From IMG/VR virus record IMGVR_UViG_3300037010_002425, positions 1 to 64,000 of that record: a DNA stretch of 64,000 nt; one strand, written 5' to 3'. Shown in pieces: positions 14,602 through 38,886 of this stretch; the stretch's first letter is position 1, and the number at the start of each line of letters is the position of its first letter. This stretch comes from a virus. The notes below the pieces were generated by a model. The model was given only the letters and a program-made list of their open reading frames with translations. It was not told the origin of the DNA and did not search any database. The position numbers and the translations under genes were made by a program.

Positions 14602-15121
14602 CGCAAGCGCTCGCTTTCCCGTTGGGAGTTTCGTACACCTCGATGCCCGTCACGAAGACGCTTTTGCTAACCGCGGCGAGGCTGCGGCGCGCCTGCTCAA
14701 GCACGTAGAGCGCCAGGCACTCGGCCGTGGGCGGGTCCTGCATGATCACGAGCTTCGTTCTCTCGTCGGCAGCCAGTGCGGGAATGAGCGGGTCGCCCAC
14801 CTGCAGGATAGTCGCGTGGTCAAGAGTCTCGTTAAGCCACTTTCCGACGGTGCTCTTGATGTCGTCGAAGTCGATGATCATCCCGTCGTTATTGGCGAGT
14901 TCTTGATGCCAGCCGCTAGCCAGTGGCTCGATAAGCTTGTGGCCGGTACCGACAGATTCGTGGCCAATTTCGACGGTTAGAAGAAAGTCGTAGCGGTGGC
15001 CGTGCAGCCCCGAGCACTTCCCCTTGTGGGCGAGCAGGCGGTGCGCGGAGTCGATGGACATTCGAATCGTCGCCGACGGACGAAGACGACGAAGGCCAGA
15101 AGTAATGTGTGTAACGCTCAT
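14591..15121 (-). CDS. queD: 6-carboxy-tetrahydropterin synthase (QueD), 176 aa
   Basis: Second step of the deazaguanine pathway. The 6-pyruvoyl-tetrahydropterin synthase fold is shown by the zinc ligands His27 (SAHRL) and His40/His42 (GLHGH), the catalytic Cys36, the LDH triad part near 100-102, and PTAE near 131-134. It is somewhat longer than the usual 120-150 residues because of an insertion near 55-80. Its stop codon overlaps the start of QueE. Confidence 0.92.
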   Translation of the reverse strand: MSVTHITSGLRRLRPSATIRMSIDSAHRLLAHKGKCSGLHGHRYDFLLTVEIGHESVGTGHKLIEPLASGWHQELANNDGMIIDFDDIKSTVGKWLNETLDHATILQVGDPLIPALAADERTKLVIMQDPPTAECLALYVLEQARRSLAAVSKSVFVTGIEVYETPNGKASACDGF

Positions 15122-30519: not shown

Positions 30520-31023
30520 TCAGCCTCCCGCGAGCCCCGTCTCGGCGTCAACAGCGATTCCGACTCCCTCGACTACCGCCACGGCAGTCGTCCCAGCCCG
30601 TGCAGCGAAAACGGGGCCCGTCTTCTCCGCCGGAATGCGCCGGCTTCCCGAGGCAAGGCCGCCTTTCTTCCCGGCCACCTTGGCCTCTTCGCGGGTGAAG
30701 CGGTGTGCGGTGCCGGCAGCATGGGCCGCCTTCCCGCCCAGGGATGCCAGCGCGCTCACCTTCGCCGGGTCCATCGCTGCAAAGCCCCGCGGCTTGCGCG
30801 GTTTCTCGTTAGCGGCCTTTTTCTCTGCGTTGTCTTTCATGGCTTTCCACTTTCTGTCTTGGAAGATGGTGTACTTTTGCGAGTTAACGGCGTGCCCTTG
30901 CCGATAACGGAGCATCCGGTCCCACGGAGGCGCCCACAGATCAGCCTCGACGCGGGTCCAGCCGCACTTTAGAAGGAACCTTGCCTCTGCTTTGAGAAGC
31001 TGGTCGACGGGCTGCCTAGCCAT
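30520..31023 (-). CDS. KGG-motif (YciG-like) protein, 167 aa
   Basis: Residues 79-122 match the stress-induced KGG repeat of YciG-type proteins: RGFAAMDPAKV, LGGKAAHAAGTAHRFT, EEAKVAGKKGG. This motif is found in small desiccation, acid or general stress proteins of bacteria and is probably disordered and DNA- or protein-binding. The N-terminal 55 residues form a separate domain (LLKAEARFLLKCGWTRVEADLWAPP). The C-terminal 45 residues are Gly/Ala/Val-rich. It lies directly downstream of the RyR-domain gene with a short overlap. Confidence 0.65.
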   Translation of the reverse strand: MARQPVDQLLKAEARFLLKCGWTRVEADLWAPPWDRMLRYRQGHAVNSQKYTIFQDRKWKAMKDNAEKKAANEKPRKPRGFAAMDPAKVSALASLGGKAAHAAGTAHRFTREEAKVAGKKGGLASGSRRIPAEKTGPVFAARAGTTAVAVVEGVGIAVDAETGLAGG

Positions 31024-31687
31024 TCCTGGCAGCTCCGACCGGGGGCGGGGCGTAGAGGTGGAGCGTGTCCCGAATGAGGGCCTCTCGCGCAGCGAACACG
31101 GCAGCCCGGAAAATGTAGTCTTTCACCTGGTCGTGGAACGGAAGCTCCACGTAGGGGAGAAAGCAGGGATGCTCTTTCTTCTCGAAGTCTTTAACGGGGC
31201 CGTATTTCCAGCCCTGCTCCGTCTTCGTCTTGAGCCAGAGTTCGTGGGATTCGCCGGGGCTGTTACCGGCCAGAACGCCGCGAACGCCGATGCGCACGCT
31301 CTCGCGCAGGTCCTCGCGGGTATCCTCCCACGGGCTGTGCGAGTTATCACCCGCTAGGCGGCAGTAGTCTGCGTTGGTCTCGTGCGCGATCGCTGCCAGG
31401 TGTTCGACAACCGCGGGGTGGTACGCGTCAAACACAGCGTGGTCGCCGATAGGACTACTAACGGCGTAGTCGACGGCGGCGCGGACAAAGCAATCCTTGG
31501 CTTCGAGAAGCTTCCGAAATCCGGCAGCTACTTCTGCTCCCGGCTGGGACGTTGGCGGGTGGGCAGCAAGCGCCGCTGCGACAACAGAAAAAAGGCGTGA
31601 CACCGGGGCGATAGACGCCGGCAAGTGCTTGTAAGTAAAGAACTTGAGAATCGGAAAGGTGGCGGTGGAGGCAGCGGGGATGTTCAT
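31016..31687 (-). CDS. RyR-domain protein with N-terminal helical hairpin, 223 aa
   Basis: Residues about 105-195 fit the RyR repeat: an SHSPWEDTRE start, KTEQGWKYGPVKDFEKKEHP (the GWxYGxxxDxxxKxHP signature) and LPYVELPFHDQVKD. In bacteria RyR domains are found with SLOG, TIR and other conflict-system proteins and are predicted to sense nucleotides. The N-terminal part (15-75, FFTYKHLPASIAPVS, then FRKLLEAKDCFVRA) resembles a helical hairpin common in phage proteins and reminiscent of Acb2/Tad1-type hairpins, although I cannot confirm this. A nucleotide-signal sponge or sensor is a reasonable hypothesis. Confidence 0.7.
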   Translation of the reverse strand: MNIPAASTATFPILKFFTYKHLPASIAPVSRLFSVVAAALAAHPPTSQPGAEVAAGFRKLLEAKDCFVRAAVDYAVSSPIGDHAVFDAYHPAVVEHLAAIAHETNADYCRLAGDNSHSPWEDTREDLRESVRIGVRGVLAGNSPGESHELWLKTKTEQGWKYGPVKDFEKKEHPCFLPYVELPFHDQVKDYIFRAAVFAAREALIRDTLHLYAPPPVGAARNG

Positions 31688-31995
31688 TGATGTTCCTTGC
31701 AGCGGACGTTGCAGTTAGAGCGCAGCACCTCGCGGCTATTCGCGTGGAGGATGCAGCTAACAGAGATGAGGCCGCGCAGGTCGGCCTCTCCCATGAAGGT
31801 TTCGCACGTAGTCCCGAGAGGCTCGACCGGGTAGCCCTCCTCGCAGTGGAGTTCGCGCAAGTGTCGGCAGGTGGTTTCTGCCGTTCGAGGAGTCATGCCC
31901 GGTTCTTCCGCCGGGGCACTCGGCGTGCAGGCCGTCGCCACGATGGCGAGCGCACAGATGAGGGCGAGGCGTTCGAAGGCTTGTTGGTGGTTCAT
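31684..31995 (-). CDS. Lipoprotein, 103 aa
   Basis: A signal peptide with hydrophobic core (LALICALAIVATAC) ends in the lipobox Cys23. The mature part has seven Cys after the lipid-anchored one (for example TTCRHLRELHCEEG, NVRCKEH), so it is probably disulphide-bonded outside the cytoplasm. Phage lipoproteins often block receptors or DNA entry of superinfecting phages. Others serve in lysis. The start overlaps the stop codon of the papain-like protease by 4 bases. Confidence 0.75.
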   Translation of the reverse strand: MNHQQAFERLALICALAIVATACTPSAPAEEPGMTPRTAETTCRHLRELHCEEGYPVEPLGTTCETFMGEADLRGLISVSCILHANSREVLRSNCNVRCKEHQ

Positions 31996-32801
31996 CGTTC
32001 TTCCAGCTTTCCAAACGCGCTAAGAGCGTAGAACTCCGCTCCGACCTTTTCGGCCCGCTCTTGAGAGATGAAGTAGAAGCCCTTGTCGCCCCAGCCGGTT
32101 CCCCAGCTGTTAATGCCGCGGTAACAAGGGATACCCCGCGTGTGCTCGACGCCGACAAGGCAGGTGTAGTGCCACCCGAGGACGGTGCCGAGTTCCTTCT
32201 GCCCGATGAAGGATTCGCCGCCAATGTAGTCCTCGAAGTCTCCGTCCACCGGCTGGGCGAACACGACAGGGAGTCCTTTCCACAGGGCGTAGGTGACGTC
32301 CTCGGGCTTGAGCGGGATCGCGTTGGACATGGTAGCCCGCCGATTAGAGAACCCTTTCTGCAGTAGGTCCAGGGGGAGCCGCGCGTTAACGACGTTCGGG
32401 TCGAAGGGGTATTCCTCCTCGTCCACGAAGCCGAACTCTTGAATGAAGCGGAACGCCAGCGCCGGCTGACATCCGCCGTCTTCGAGAGCAGGAAACGAGC
32501 GGTGCTCTTTCGAGCGGCCACCCGCGTAGATAGCGAGCGCGGAAGGGCGAAGTTCGCCCCGCGACATGACGCGCACGGCCTGGGCGATAGCTTGACCGAC
32601 GCACGAGCTAGTGGCCCCCTGGTCGACGATTTCCGGCTCGTAGCCCGCCGGCAACGCGTAGCTGTGCCCGGCAGGGTTGGGGTGGTCGGGGAAGCCAGGG
32701 AAACTCAGGAACGTAGAATACTTCCCGTCGGCTTTCCGCTCAGTGGGCTGGTGCAGGTACGTGTCCCCGCTACGACGAAAGCCGTAGGTTCTAGTAATCA
32801 T
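31992..32801 (-). CDS. Papain-like (C1) cysteine protease, 269 aa
   Basis: Start at ATG 32801 (MITRTYGFRRSG), overlapping the upstream lipoprotein stop codon. The catalytic set is complete: Gln61 and Cys67 in VDQGATSSCVGQ, His211 in LGWHYTCLVG, and Asn231 in GINSWGTGWGDKGFYFIS. There is no obvious signal peptide and no long propeptide. C1 peptidases are uncommon in tailed phages. Possible roles are processing of host or virion proteins, attack on host defence, or lysis. It lies between two lipoprotein genes, which hints at an envelope or host-takeover role. Confidence 0.85.
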   Translation of the reverse strand: MITRTYGFRRSGDTYLHQPTERKADGKYSTFLSFPGFPDHPNPAGHSYALPAGYEPEIVDQGATSSCVGQAIAQAVRVMSRGELRPSALAIYAGGRSKEHRSFPALEDGGCQPALAFRFIQEFGFVDEEEYPFDPNVVNARLPLDLLQKGFSNRRATMSNAIPLKPEDVTYALWKGLPVVFAQPVDGDFEDYIGGESFIGQKELGTVLGWHYTCLVGVEHTRGIPCYRGINSWGTGWGDKGFYFISQERAEKVGAEFYALSAFGKLEER

Positions 32802-33124
32802 CGGTCGGCACCTGCGTCTTTCGGCGTGGCGTGTTCGAGTGCGTATTTCCGCGACGCCGCCCGCGACGTGTTGACGATTTCGCGGAGGTCCGGAAGCAGG
32901 GCGTCCGTGATGTTGCACACTCGGGCGATGGTCGCATCGTCGCTCTCCGCGTTGGCGATAATGCAGATGACGTTCGCCGCATCGAGCGCGGTGTTCGCTG
33001 CTCGCCGATTAGCGGCGGGTGAACAGGCCGCGGAGTACACGGACAAAGCCACGAGGCCGGCCGTCGAGATCAGGATGAACAGGAGGGCTTGCGCTACCGG
33101 CTTTTTCTTCGTTGCAGTGTGCAT
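32798..33124 (-). CDS. Lipoprotein, 108 aa
   Basis: A basic start (ATKKKP) and hydrophobic segment (ALLFILISTAGLVALSVY) lead to the lipobox SAAC with Cys34. The mature domain is helical with two Cys (NVICII, ARVCNIT). The ATG at 33124 follows GAGG within the upstream zinc protein, which it overlaps by 116 bases. A spanin-like or superinfection-exclusion role is possible. No partner spanin is recognised. Confidence 0.7.
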   Translation of the reverse strand: MHTATKKKPVAQALLFILISTAGLVALSVYSAACSPAANRRAANTALDAANVICIIANAESDDATIARVCNITDALLPDLREIVNTSRAASRKYALEHATPKDAGADR

Positions 33125-33383
33125 CTTCGGCCTCTTTCTCTTCTTTGCAGTAGGCGCAGTATTTAGAAAACTGCGCTGTAATAACCTGAGCAGGGAGCAT
33201 TCCCTTCTTCAGGAAGTCTTCGCAGCGAGTCTGGTGCTCGGGGTCTCGGCACTCAGAAGTCGACCACGTGTCGCGGCGGCAGAAGAGGCAGATGCTCGGG
33301 AATCCACCTTCCCGGTACGCCTCAAAGCAGCCTGCGCAGAGTAGTGCGTTCGCGGGGTCCCCGCAGATGGCGCAGGGCTTCAT
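33009..33383 (-). CDS. Zinc-ribbon protein, 124 aa
   Basis: Starts MKPCAICGDPANALLCAGC, with further pairs CLFC and CAYC, giving several likely zinc-binding knuckles in the first 80 residues. The last 45 residues, basic and without Cys except one, are encoded in DNA shared with the start of the lipoprotein gene. The start overlaps the upstream stop codon by 4 bases. Function unknown. Confidence 0.6.
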   Translation of the reverse strand: MKPCAICGDPANALLCAGCFEAYREGGFPSICLFCRRDTWSTSECRDPEHQTRCEDFLKKGMLPAQVITAQFSKYCAYCKEEKEAEDAHCNEEKAGSASPPVHPDLDGRPRGFVRVLRGLFTRR

Positions 33384-33859
33384 AGCGAGGGGCCGCTAGC
33401 CTTCTTGTGGGGGCGCGGCACCTCCTCGACGCCCGACGCCCGAACGCGCTCCAGGGATTCCTCGGCAGCTGCCCGCACGGCGGCAAAAGGGTCCTCGGCG
33501 AACACCCCCGCCCCCGTCAGGGTGCTGCGTACGGAGTCGTTAATGCGTCCCTGTTTCAACGCGAGGCGTTCGAGTCGCACGATGTTCGCCATCAACACCG
33601 CGTAGCCGGCGAGGTCAAGGTACGGGTCTTCGTTGTCGAAGCTTTCGTCGTTCGCAATGCGGGCGAGCTTATCCATGATGCGCTGCGCGAACAGCACCTT
33701 CATGAGCGTCAGCACGGGAACGCTGACGAAGATTTTCGCTAGGGCATACGGAGCTTGTCGAACGCTGTCCCCGTAGGAGGCGTTCTTTAGCTTGAGCGTG
33801 GTACCCAGATCGGCAAGAAATTCGTCGATTCCAGTAACGGCGGTGATGGCGGTGGTCAT
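33380..33859 (-). CDS. DUF1599-like (nucleotide modification associated) protein, 159 aa
   Basis: The core (about 10-100) matches the DUF1599/Nmad1 pattern: LKLKNASYGDS, then a helix ending IMDKLARIAN, then EDPYLDLAGYAVLMANI. This all-helical family resembles MazG-type folds and has been linked by gene context to modified-nucleotide metabolism in phages. The C-terminal 40 residues are variable. It could help to shape nucleotide pools for the deazaguanine-modified genome, but the genes are far apart and this is inference. Confidence 0.7.
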   Translation of the reverse strand: MTTAITAVTGIDEFLADLGTTLKLKNASYGDSVRQAPYALAKIFVSVPVLTLMKVLFAQRIMDKLARIANDESFDNEDPYLDLAGYAVLMANIVRLERLALKQGRINDSVRSTLTGAGVFAEDPFAAVRAAAEESLERVRASGVEEVPRPHKKASGPSL

Positions 33860-35728: not shown

Positions 35729-36364
35729 TCAGGCGATCGGCAGGGAGACGGTCGGCTGATAAAGCGACAACTGCTTCCCAGCAAGCTCGCGTGCAGACAG
35801 CACGTTAATGGGACCGGGCTCGTCGGGCACGGTGAAGTCAAACGAGATGTTCGCATCGGGAATCTCGACGTGCAGCCGGGTCCCGCGGAGCACCTCCGCC
35901 TCCCAGTAGCCCCGGTCGTCGGGATAGAAGGTTCGTTCCGCCGGCAAGCGCACAACCTTGTCGGGCCTCGTCCCCGATTCTCCGCCGAAAGAGGTCGTCT
36001 GGTCTCCGAGTGCCTGGCGATAGGAGATAACTACGCTAGACGCCGGGTCTACGGCGCCGAACGGGTCCATCAGGTAGCCGACAAGTAGGCAGAAACCCGG
36101 AAGCTCGGGAGGGGAAACGACGATAACGGGGTCGCTGTCTCCGGCCTCGCCGGCGGCGATAATACGGTAGATGTCACCGGGCGTTCCGAGCGTGTCCGTG
36201 TGCGCGTAGGTGCGGCTCTCGGTGTCGTAGTTGGCGCCCGTCGGGTCGCGCAAGATGGTGGCGAGGGAGGTGTAGTTGAGCCCGCCGTCGGTCGACCTTT
36301 CGATTCGGTACGATTGCGCCGTCTCGTCGGTCCCGTCCCATCGCAAAGTGTGGTTAGTAGCCAT
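35729..36364 (-). CDS. Fibronectin-type-III-like virion protein, 211 aa
   Basis: The first 85 residues look like a fibronectin type III domain (LRWDGTDETAQSYRIERSTDGG, then YRIIAAGEAGDSDP). The second half is beta-rich (PDDRGYWEAEVLRGTRLHVEI). It lies directly after the long repeat fibre gene (1-base stop/start overlap), so it is probably a tail-fibre tip, attachment or decoration protein. No membrane or enzymatic motif. Confidence 0.65.
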   Translation of the reverse strand: MATNHTLRWDGTDETAQSYRIERSTDGGLNYTSLATILRDPTGANYDTESRTYAHTDTLGTPGDIYRIIAAGEAGDSDPVIVVSPPELPGFCLLVGYLMDPFGAVDPASSVVISYRQALGDQTTSFGGESGTRPDKVVRLPAERTFYPDDRGYWEAEVLRGTRLHVEIPDANISFDFTVPDEPGPINVLSARELAGKQLSLYQPTVSLPIA

Positions 36365-38886
36365 TACCTCTTCTCCGGTTTCTTCTGCGTGGCGCTGGAA
36401 AGGTGCACGATGGTTAGTCGCGGCCGATTCTGGGTTTCTGTGGTGATAGTAACGTCAACGCTGGGAGCTTTCTGCTGCCCAGGAGCGAGCACTCGGACGT
36501 CTTTAGCGGGACGCTGCCTGACGGAGAAGTCCGGCGCCCGGCCAGCAGAGCGGAAGCCAGAGAGGACGGCGACAACCGTACCCAGGTGGGCGAGCCCGCC
36601 AGCCGCCGCAGCTGTAAGAGCCTGAAGTGAGGAGTCGCCGACGCCCACAAACGCTATAGAGGCAAACGCCGAAGAGCGGAACGACGAGAACGCCACAGTG
36701 CCGGCACCTGAGAAGGTTAGAAGTCCCGTAGCGCTGCCGACGAAAGCCACGAGGTTAGTCGCCGCCGTCCCCGTGATGGGGAGCAGTGCCGCAGCGACAC
36801 CGGTTGCTTGGAGCTGCCTTAGCGAGCTGGTCCCGGTTGCTGAGAAAGTCTCCGCGCCGGCGGATGTTCCCGCGAAGGGGGACAGAACAGAGCTTCCCGT
36901 AGCCGAGTATCCCCAAGCACCTGCCGCGGTAGCGGTAAACGAGCACAGAGTGCCGCTCCCGATAGCAGAAAACGCCTCCGATCCGGTACCCGAGCTAGCG
37001 AGCGCAATGCTGCTGGTGGTGGTGCCGGAGAAGGCTTCTGCGCCAGCAGCGCTATTAGCGAGGGGCTGAAGAACACCGGCCCCCGTAGCCGCGAAGGTCT
37101 CCGCAGCGTTTCCGCTAGAAGCGAAAGAGCGAAGCGTTCCGCTCGCCGTTGCCGAGAAGACGAGTGACGCCGCGCCGCTAGAGGCGAAAGCTACAGAAGA
37201 CGCCGCCGTGCCTGTGAACGCCTCTGAGCCCGCCGCGCTGCTAGCAAAAGAGGCCAGAGCCGAGGCACACGAGCCGCTTGTGCCGGCCAGAGAGCTACCC
37301 GTCGCATCCGAGGCGAAAGGCTGCAACGCGCTAACGCACGTCGCCGAAAAGGTCTCGAAAGCTGTTGCGCTAGAGGCAGGGCTTTGGAGCGCACCTGCAG
37401 CCGTCGCCGAGAACGTTTCCGCTCCTGTAGCTGCGCTGGCGAAAGAAGCGCACGTGCCGGTCGCCGTTCCGGAAAACGTTTCTGCGCCCGTACCAGCCGA
37501 AGCCAGCGAGCGCGTCGTGCCCGTAGCCGTTGCGCTGAATGTCTCCGCCCCGGCTCCTGCGCTAGCAAACCTAGAGACGGCTGCTGTACAGGTTGCCGAG
37601 AAAGTCTCGGCACCGGTCCCGCTAGAGGCAAACGGAGACACAGCACCGCTACAAGTCCCGGTGATAGGCAGAAGCGCAGTCGCCGTGCCTGCCGACGCAA
37701 ACGGGGAGACAGCCCCGCCGCCGCTACCACTGAAAGTCTCTACGCCAGTAGCCGCGGAAGCAAAAGAGGCGCACGTCCCTGAGGCTGTAGCAGAGAAGGT
37801 TTCTGCTCCCGTTCCGCTACTTGCGAAGAGCTGCACAGCCCCGGCCGCCGTTGCGGAAAAGGCGAGAGTGGCGGCAGCGCTAGAAGCCAGAGGCCGCACG
37901 GCACCCGAGGCTGTTGCCGTAAACGCTTCCGTCCCCGAAGCGCTAGAGGCTAGGCTAGAAACAGCGCCAGAGCCCGTGCCAGAGAAAAGCTCGGAGCCGC
38001 TAACGACGCTGGCGAACGGGGTGAGCGCACCGGAGGCGGTCCCCGTCACGGGAGAGGCAGCGGTAAAGCGTCCCCAGTAGGTGATCCAGGCGGTAGCCTG
38101 GCTATCGTCAATAGCTTCGTACCCAATCCACAGGGAGGCCAGTTGTGTCGCCGTGGCGTAGGACGAGAGCGCCAGGCCGGAGTATCCGATAGACAGCTGG
38201 CTAGCTGGGAACTCGGGGCGGATAGTTAGAGCTGCGGATTCAACCCACGCCCCGGCCCCGACGCGAATGCCAATCTTGTAGCCGCCCGAGCTTTTGCGCT
38301 GCCCGCGGATAAACACCGAGCTATAGGTGCCAAGAGGGAGCGTCTGGCTAACGCTAACGAAGCCGTCTACGGCGTTGCCAATAGTCAGGTAGATAGTAGC
38401 TACCCCACCGTTCTGGCGCACGTTTACGTAGAGCCCGTAGCCTGCCGCCGAGGCGACGATGGGCTCGTTCTCGTAGCTAGTAACGCTGTTAGTAGAAGAG
38501 GAGGTAACCTTCAGGTACATCCCGAGCGAGAACTCGGGGCCCGGCAGAAACACGTTTTGCGAATCGAGCGTAATGACGCCGCCCATCCCGCTAATGTTGG
38601 CGGCGTGGTAGGCGCCTAGCGCGTCTCCAACGGAAAAAGCACCGCCAAAGGCAGTGCTGTCTACGGGGTGGAGCTTGGAGCCGCCTGCAACGGAGTTTTT
38701 CCCGCTCCAGACAGCGCCAGTGATGTTCTCGGCATCTTCAACCCACAGCGAGAGGCGCGCTTTCGGCGCACCGGATACGAGTGCCTGAAAAGGGAGCGCC
38801 CGACGCGGAAGGTCAAAGACCGCACGCCGAGGCCACGTTAGAGGCAGACGCCTCGCCGGGGAGTTGAAGAGGTCGATAGTTCTCAT
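36364..38886 (-). CDS. Tail fibre with about 22 copies of a 21-residue repeat, 840 aa
   Basis: Residues 1-275 contain a lectin/concanavalin-like domain (SLWVEDAENITGAVWSG; FSLGMYLKV; VFIRGQRKSSGGYKIGIR). From about 284 to 755 comes a regular repeat of consensus SGAvspFASsgtGaETFSATa, 21 residues with a few 20- and 23-residue variants. The Ala/Ser/Gly/Thr content with one aromatic every 10-11 residues suggests a beta-solenoid or triple beta-helix fibre. The C-terminal 85 residues are basic and polar. Probably a host-recognition or surface fibre. Repeat number is likely to vary. Confidence 0.75.
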   Translation of the reverse strand: MRTIDLFNSPARRLPLTWPRRAVFDLPRRALPFQALVSGAPKARLSLWVEDAENITGAVWSGKNSVAGGSKLHPVDSTAFGGAFSVGDALGAYHAANISGMGGVITLDSQNVFLPGPEFSLGMYLKVTSSSTNSVTSYENEPIVASAAGYGLYVNVRQNGGVATIYLTIGNAVDGFVSVSQTLPLGTYSSVFIRGQRKSSGGYKIGIRVGAGAWVESAALTIRPEFPASQLSIGYSGLALSSYATATQLASLWIGYEAIDDSQATAWITYWGRFTAASPVTGTASGALTPFASVVSGSELFSGTGSGAVSSLASSASGTEAFTATASGAVRPLASSAAATLAFSATAAGAVQLFASSGTGAETFSATASGTCASFASAATGVETFSGSGGGAVSPFASAGTATALLPITGTCSGAVSPFASSGTGAETFSATCTAAVSRFASAGAGAETFSATATGTTRSLASAGTGAETFSGTATGTCASFASAATGAETFSATAAGALQSPASSATAFETFSATCVSALQPFASDATGSSLAGTSGSCASALASFASSAAGSEAFTGTAASSVAFASSGAASLVFSATASGTLRSFASSGNAAETFAATGAGVLQPLANSAAGAEAFSGTTTSSIALASSGTGSEAFSAIGSGTLCSFTATAAGAWGYSATGSSVLSPFAGTSAGAETFSATGTSSLRQLQATGVAAALLPITGTAATNLVAFVGSATGLLTFSGAGTVAFSSFRSSAFASIAFVGVGDSSLQALTAAAAGGLAHLGTVVAVLSGFRSAGRAPDFSVRQRPAKDVRVLAPGQQKAPSVDVTITTETQNRPRLTIVHLSSATQKKPEKR
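36620..38040. repeat. 63-base tandem repeat array inside the fibre gene
   Basis: The DNA behind the 21-residue protein repeat: about 22 units of 63 bases, imperfect at the base level. The longest plus-strand shadow frames of this area come from the repeat and are not genes. Confidence 0.75.

Follow-up and report, generated by a model that had tools for sequence, protein, structure and literature searches.

What might a virus gain from a gene that joins a small helical hairpin to a ryanodine receptor (RyR) domain? The question is raised by a reading frame that we call P0001, which lies in the window, the 64,000-nucleotide stretch analysed here (positions 1 to 64,000 of an IMG/VR virus record of 69,202 bases). 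In prokaryotes, RyR domains occur in predicted conflict systems together with nucleotide-processing TIR and SLOG domains. In line with this, an earlier note made from the letters alone had proposed that the P0001 product is an anti-defence nucleotide binder, with a hairpin reminiscent of the sponges Acb2 and Tad1.

The P0001 gene and its surroundings

P0001 was confirmed as a real open reading frame on the minus strand. It starts with an ATG at 31687 and stops at 31016, and an AAGGA Shine-Dalgarno-like motif is found 7 bases 5' of the start codon. The gene shares the bases ATGA with the preceding gene and overlaps the following one by 8 bases. The three genes are:

31016..31687, minus strand: P0001, hairpin-RyR fusion protein of 223 aa (ORF with Shine-Dalgarno motif AAGGA, overlapping both flanking genes)
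31684..31995, minus strand: upstream overlapping gene, lipoprotein-like, 103 aa (from the ORF list)
30520..31023, minus strand: downstream overlapping gene, KGG-motif protein, 167 aa (ORF with the KGG stress-induced motif PF10685)

One gene away from P0001, a papain-family cysteine protease is encoded (window 31992-32918, minus strand; PF00112, E 3e-10). A gene at 36364-38886 on the same strand encodes a protein of 840 aa with numerous degenerate repeats of the 'SGTGAETFSATATGT' type. Genes for a recombinase of the UvsX type, a primase, two helicases (one of them DnaB-like) and a baseplate wedge protein are also present in the record, a gene set like those of contractile-tailed phages. P0001 itself lies outside the head module, with a helicase gene to one side of it and the primase/DnaB genes to the other. 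The neighbours had been described as being of host-interaction type, which fits them only weakly: the papain-like peptidase, the lipoprotein-like ORF and the KGG protein adjoin, but replication genes share the region.

The RyR half and its predicted ligand residues

The C-terminal half of P0001 proved to be an RyR domain, as had been suspected. PF02026 (RyR) matches aa 146-187 with an E-value of 1.8e-9 and 38.2 bits, above the curated cut-off of 27.4, and the match was recovered again on the G000 DNA. PHROG 11782/5154/18865 cover aa 85-202 (E 1e-32 to 1e-33), and a phmmer search against the PDB retrieved ryanodine receptors as well as the phage protein 35TM (aa 118-207, E 2.7e-10). Structure prediction, which had been suggested as a check of the fold, found it: an AF2 model based on 36 sequences reaches a pLDDT of 90-96 across aa 91-200, and the structure ranking of this model is led by R12 chains of ryanodine receptors (6uhi with Z 9.5 and an rmsd of 5.4 over 129; 9l91 with Z 9.4 and an rmsd of 3.7 over 124). 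As none of 2000 shuffled versions of P0001 matched the RyR or the hairpin profile at E ≤ 10, the domain observation does not represent a chance match. With Repeat12 of the ryanodine receptor and a RyR-like protein of Bacteroides (3nrt, 6uag), P0001 shares the fold and an adenine-ligand pocket; it differs from them as a soluble phage protein with a single repeat and no channel.

The entry 35TM belongs to the RyDEPs, phage RyR-domain Defense Evasion Proteins (PMC13232231; bioRxiv, 29 May 2026). According to this study, phage RyR proteins defeat Thoeris, and the RyDEP of DyoEdafos cleaves the signals 2'cADPR and 3'cADPR. Eight homologues, which the study calls highly conserved with RyDEP, were also tested: six bound signals, two formed no stable signal complex and none cleaved. 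The sponge homologues H4 (from a Ruegeria phage) and H7 (from a Pectobacterium phage) sequestered the signals, binding them with nanomolar affinity, and rescued phages from Thoeris. The homologues that bind cADPR immune signals are spread over several branches of the family tree (PMC13232231).

P0001 resembles RyDEP in being phage-encoded, in its PF02026/R12 domain, in its match to 35TM and in an H-x2-W motif, a second histidine and an aspartate that are equally spaced in both proteins. The domain and the residues concerned are:

31076..31417, minus strand: phage-type RyR (R12/RyDEP) domain, aa 91-204 (Pfam, PHROG, phmmer, AF2 and structure comparison)
31244..31246, minus strand: H148, equivalent to the catalytic H75 of RyDEP (H in 36 of 36 relatives)
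31235..31237, minus strand: W151, equivalent to RyDEP W78, the adenine brace (alignment of 36)
31169..31171, minus strand: H173, equivalent to RyDEP H100, a phosphate contact (alignment of 36)
31118..31120, minus strand: D190, equivalent to the catalytic D117 of RyDEP (conserved in 35 of 36 relatives)
31307..31309, minus strand: L127, probably at the position of RyDEP Q54 (Q in 34 of 36 relatives; equivalence inferred from spacing)

From H148, the distances to W151, H173 and D190 are 3, 25 and 42 residues, the same as in RyDEP, and the columns are invariant or nearly so among the 36 aligned sequences. Since the dyad and the ligand residues are kept at identical spacing, the family supports an anti-defence reading. 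P0001 deviates from the family in the otherwise conserved 'APxWQ' segment of the same alignment, and it carries L127 at the position of the conserved glutamine; Q54 is an active-site residue of RyDEP and was among those mutated (PMC13232231). Further differences from RyDEP are the lack of any sign of a NARP1 operon and the presence of an additional, conserved N-terminal hairpin, which is absent from the main text of PMC13232231.

By tblastn, the nearest relatives of P0001 are RyR proteins of Pectobacterium phages, with 44% identity. P0001 forms a long branch (3.78 changes per column), and its function could therefore have shifted. Other phage RyR proteins vary in architecture and annotation. 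In Arthrobacter phage StarLord gp67 (L341:2018-2851) the domain follows a hydrophobic, probably membrane-spanning N-terminus, making this a membrane-anchored variant. Pseudomonas phage USP_25 (L342:2501-3331), where the RyR gene sits among structural genes, and a further locus (L002:3986-4879) encode RyR proteins with similar-looking C-terminal extensions. The RyR protein of Pseudomonas phage vB_PaeP-D14S (BK061591.1:20857-21177) is annotated as 'Anti-CRISPR protein'.

The hairpin half and its linkage to RyR

31472..31654, minus strand: N-terminal helical hairpin, aa 12-72, of the PHROG 1761/5120 family (PHROG match; AF2 pLDDT 93 when modelled alone)

The N-terminal half likewise belongs to a family common in phages, as the earlier note had thought. 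PHROG 1761/5120 match aa 8-76 with an E-value of 1e-16, and standalone relatives occur in 366 of 50,697 phage records; the family is mostly encoded as a protein of its own, of 62-80 aa. Modelled alone, the hairpin is predicted by AF2 (pLDDT 93) as a short helix followed by two long antiparallel helices (model residues 4-16, 26-41 and 49-73); in the full-length model its pLDDT is only about 60. Most of the relatives in the set were obtained through the exact peptide LEAKDCFV, and the set was later widened with tblastn relatives of the LEAKDAAVRA and WEAKNLAVFA forms. The 100% conservation of LEAKDCFV is thus circular, but outside this peptide F17, H21, L22, P23, S30, A37 and an R-K pair before LLEAKD are strongly kept. 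In a mixed alignment, EAKDCFVRA of the hairpin was placed on QAKDFIFRA of RyR helix 4, which we treat as an alignment artefact or chance.

Among PDB entries, the hairpin matches 8jaj, the phage protein Gp22, with an E-value of 7e-4 (0.002 for the best stretch). Standalone hairpin genes of the P0001 type often stand beside portal and terminase genes, with about 15 portal-type matches among 94 neighbours. Family members are also found fused to a WDGH domain (PF25311; L006:3797-4693 and L007:408-965), a domain on which a literature search found no paper. In two further loci, one of them a Rhodococcoides fascians contig (L181:3395-5863; the other is L061:3803-5860), a prohead protease-capsid polyprotein carries the hairpin as an in-frame fusion at its N-terminus.

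The supposed kinship of the hairpin with Acb2 and Tad1 found no support at the sequence level from Pfam, hhalign or hmmsearch. PF24729 (Acb2_Tad1_hairpin) does not match P0001; the best value among 26-27 relatives was E 0.13, and seven divergent relatives gave no match. For comparison, two profiles of the Acb2 family were used, one built on T4 Vs.4 together with PF24729 loci, the other on phage relatives, namely Acb2-type genes next to RyR. With the former, 8h2j and 8ixz, both structures of Acb2, are found at about 1e-22, and the two profiles match each other in hhalign at 96.8%, whereas the P0001 hairpin family reaches a probability of only 0.1-0.9% against them, and hmmsearch likewise gave no support. 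The widened hairpin set did not yield a link either. With a Neff of 2.2-2.7, the hairpin alignment is of low diversity, which weakens the comparison and leaves a very remote kinship possible. Foldseek and VIA searches with the hairpin model returned no Acb2 or Tad1 chain among those listed, an absence that is uninformative. What the two families have in common is that both are small phage hairpins, and the predicted topology of the P0001 hairpin, in which a short helix at the N-terminus precedes a pair of long antiparallel ones, resembles that of the Acb2 protomer described in PMC12043709. Their surroundings differ, as hairpins of the Acb2/Tad1 type are found beside ERF and exonuclease genes, and in one case beside Acb3.

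Both families nevertheless occur next to RyR. Fusion to RyR in one clear ORF was found in only one other contig (L001), while hairpin genes of the P0001 type precede RyR genes in three more (L163, L005 and L004), each time beside terminase or portal genes. As an unplanned result, 13 viral loci were found to have an ORF that matches the Acb2 profile and lies upstream of RyR, either adjacent to it or with one gene between, and PF24729 was confirmed in five of five such ORFs tested (39-50 bits; cut-off 27):

L120:2642-2878, L115:3750-3995, L110:3522-3758, L119:40-270 and L135:2683-2919: PF24729 genes immediately or one gene upstream of RyR

Between the PF24729 and RyR genes of the L110 group lies a conserved gene of 75 aa. 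Genes of the Acb2 type were found near RyR in 13 of 87 loci, and in none of the 124 control loci (Fisher p 6e-6). This excess shrinks when the loci are dereplicated at 90% RyR identity, to 2 of 46 RyR loci or groups with the pairing. With PF24729 genes upstream of RyR elsewhere, and P0001-type hairpins adjacent in three contigs and fused in L001, the hairpin-RyR linkage recurs, though in few lineages. It is a minority arrangement, as eight annotated phages with RyR encode no hairpin within 2.5 kb. Ruegeria phage vB_RpoP-V12 (MH015250, NC_049435) has separate genes for an RyR protein (33197-33529) and for a protein of the hairpin family (14649-14795), far from each other. The pairing could in part be a product of accessory-gene clustering. 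A single origin of the two fusions was not rejected (AU p 0.28), and we therefore do not claim that they arose independently; the fusions and the adjacent pairs could also share one origin (AU p 0.19-0.28).

A putative signal sponge and its alternatives

We consider it reasonably probable that P0001 is a counter-defence protein of the RyDEP type, which binds a cADPR signal, sequesters rather than hydrolyses it, and uses its hairpin to oligomerise or as a scaffold. In this model, the RyR half would have a pocket, lined by H148, W151, H173 and D190, that binds 2'cADPR and/or 3'cADPR produced by the TIR enzymes of Thoeris. This would lower the concentration of free signal, more likely through tight sequestration than through hydrolysis. 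The N-terminal hairpin would most likely be an added module that oligomerises or scaffolds the protein. That P0001 itself binds such a signal and acts as a sponge, and the role assigned to the hairpin, are what we infer. The preference for a sponge over an enzyme draws on the homologues that bind without cleaving, on L127 and on the Pectobacterium phage proteins as nearest relatives. The recurrent linkage of RyR to hairpins, by fusion in L001 and as neighbouring genes elsewhere, also speaks for the model. Against it count the two homologues that formed no stable complex, the long branch, the departure from 'APxWQ' and, as regards the hairpin, its low pLDDT in the full-length model and the portal and terminase genes beside many standalone relatives. 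Of the original proposal of an anti-defence nucleotide binder, the RyR part is well supported by homology to studied phage RyR proteins and by the ligand residues, and the Acb2/Tad1 part is not supported at the sequence level. Likewise, the proposed ligand, an ADP-ribose derivative or a cyclic nucleotide, would by homology be of the ADP-ribose type, namely 2'/3'cADPR.

The presence of the dyad, the tryptophan and the second histidine at RyDEP spacing could also mean that P0001 is a glycosidase, which, like the DyoEdafos protein, would convert 2'/3'cADPR to linear ADPR by means of H148 and D190. This is unlikely, given that none of the eight homologues cleaved despite being highly conserved with RyDEP (PMC13232231) and that P0001 lacks the conserved glutamine. 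The gene content points the same way. Enzymes of the NAPRTase or PRPP-synthetase type, which one would expect in a NARP1 pathway, found no family match in the 69-kb record, which may be incomplete. With about the same low likelihood, the RyR domain may have a metabolic or regulatory role outside defence, with an ordinary adenine nucleotide or ADP-ribose as its ligand. R12 domains do bind ATP-like ligands (6uhh, 9l90), and replication genes are among the neighbours of P0001; against this, phage RyR homologues bind cADPR immune signals and the two sponge types tested rescued phages from Thoeris (PMC13232231).

The other two alternatives concern the hairpin. It may bind signals of a second class, such as a CBASS cyclic oligonucleotide, while the RyR half binds one of the cADPR type, so that one polypeptide, or elsewhere a two-gene cassette, would act against two or more nucleotide-signalling defences. 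The genuine PF24729 proteins encoded adjacent to or one gene from RyR, the P0001-type hairpins that adjoin RyR or are fused to it, and the Acb2-like predicted topology are all in line with this. We regard it as rather improbable, as the P0001 hairpin has no sequence link to Acb2/Tad1, helical hairpins are common folds for which the structure search gave no specific match, and the two hairpin types keep different neighbourhoods (portal/terminase versus ERF/exonuclease). Slimmer still is the prospect of a hairpin that serves as a head-associated or late-gene module, with the RyR domain as a cargo carried in, or assembled with, the virion. The proximity of hairpins to portal and terminase genes, both when standalone and when paired with RyR, keeps this explanation alive, as do the in-frame fusions to prohead protease-capsid proteins and the annotation of RyR as 'minor head protein' in two records. 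However, P0001 lies outside the head module, between helicase and primase/DnaB genes; nearness to head genes need not imply function, and 'minor head protein' is a record annotation.

P0001 probably represents a new shape within a counter-defence family that is already known, and not a new kind of system. As far as can be judged from the sequences compared, its hairpin-RyR fusion is a new architecture within the RyDEP family. Phage RyR proteins have been linked to the evasion of immune signals only very recently. The fusion, together with the recurrent adjacent hairpins of two families, one of them the Acb2/Tad1 hairpin, that have no detectable sequence kinship, suggests that phages may build compact counter-signalling cassettes. 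If the dual-module reading were true, a single gene would counter two or more nucleotide-signalling defences. With its occurrence in 366 of 50,697 phage records, the P0001-type hairpin family provides a concrete and widespread candidate for a role in counter-signalling.
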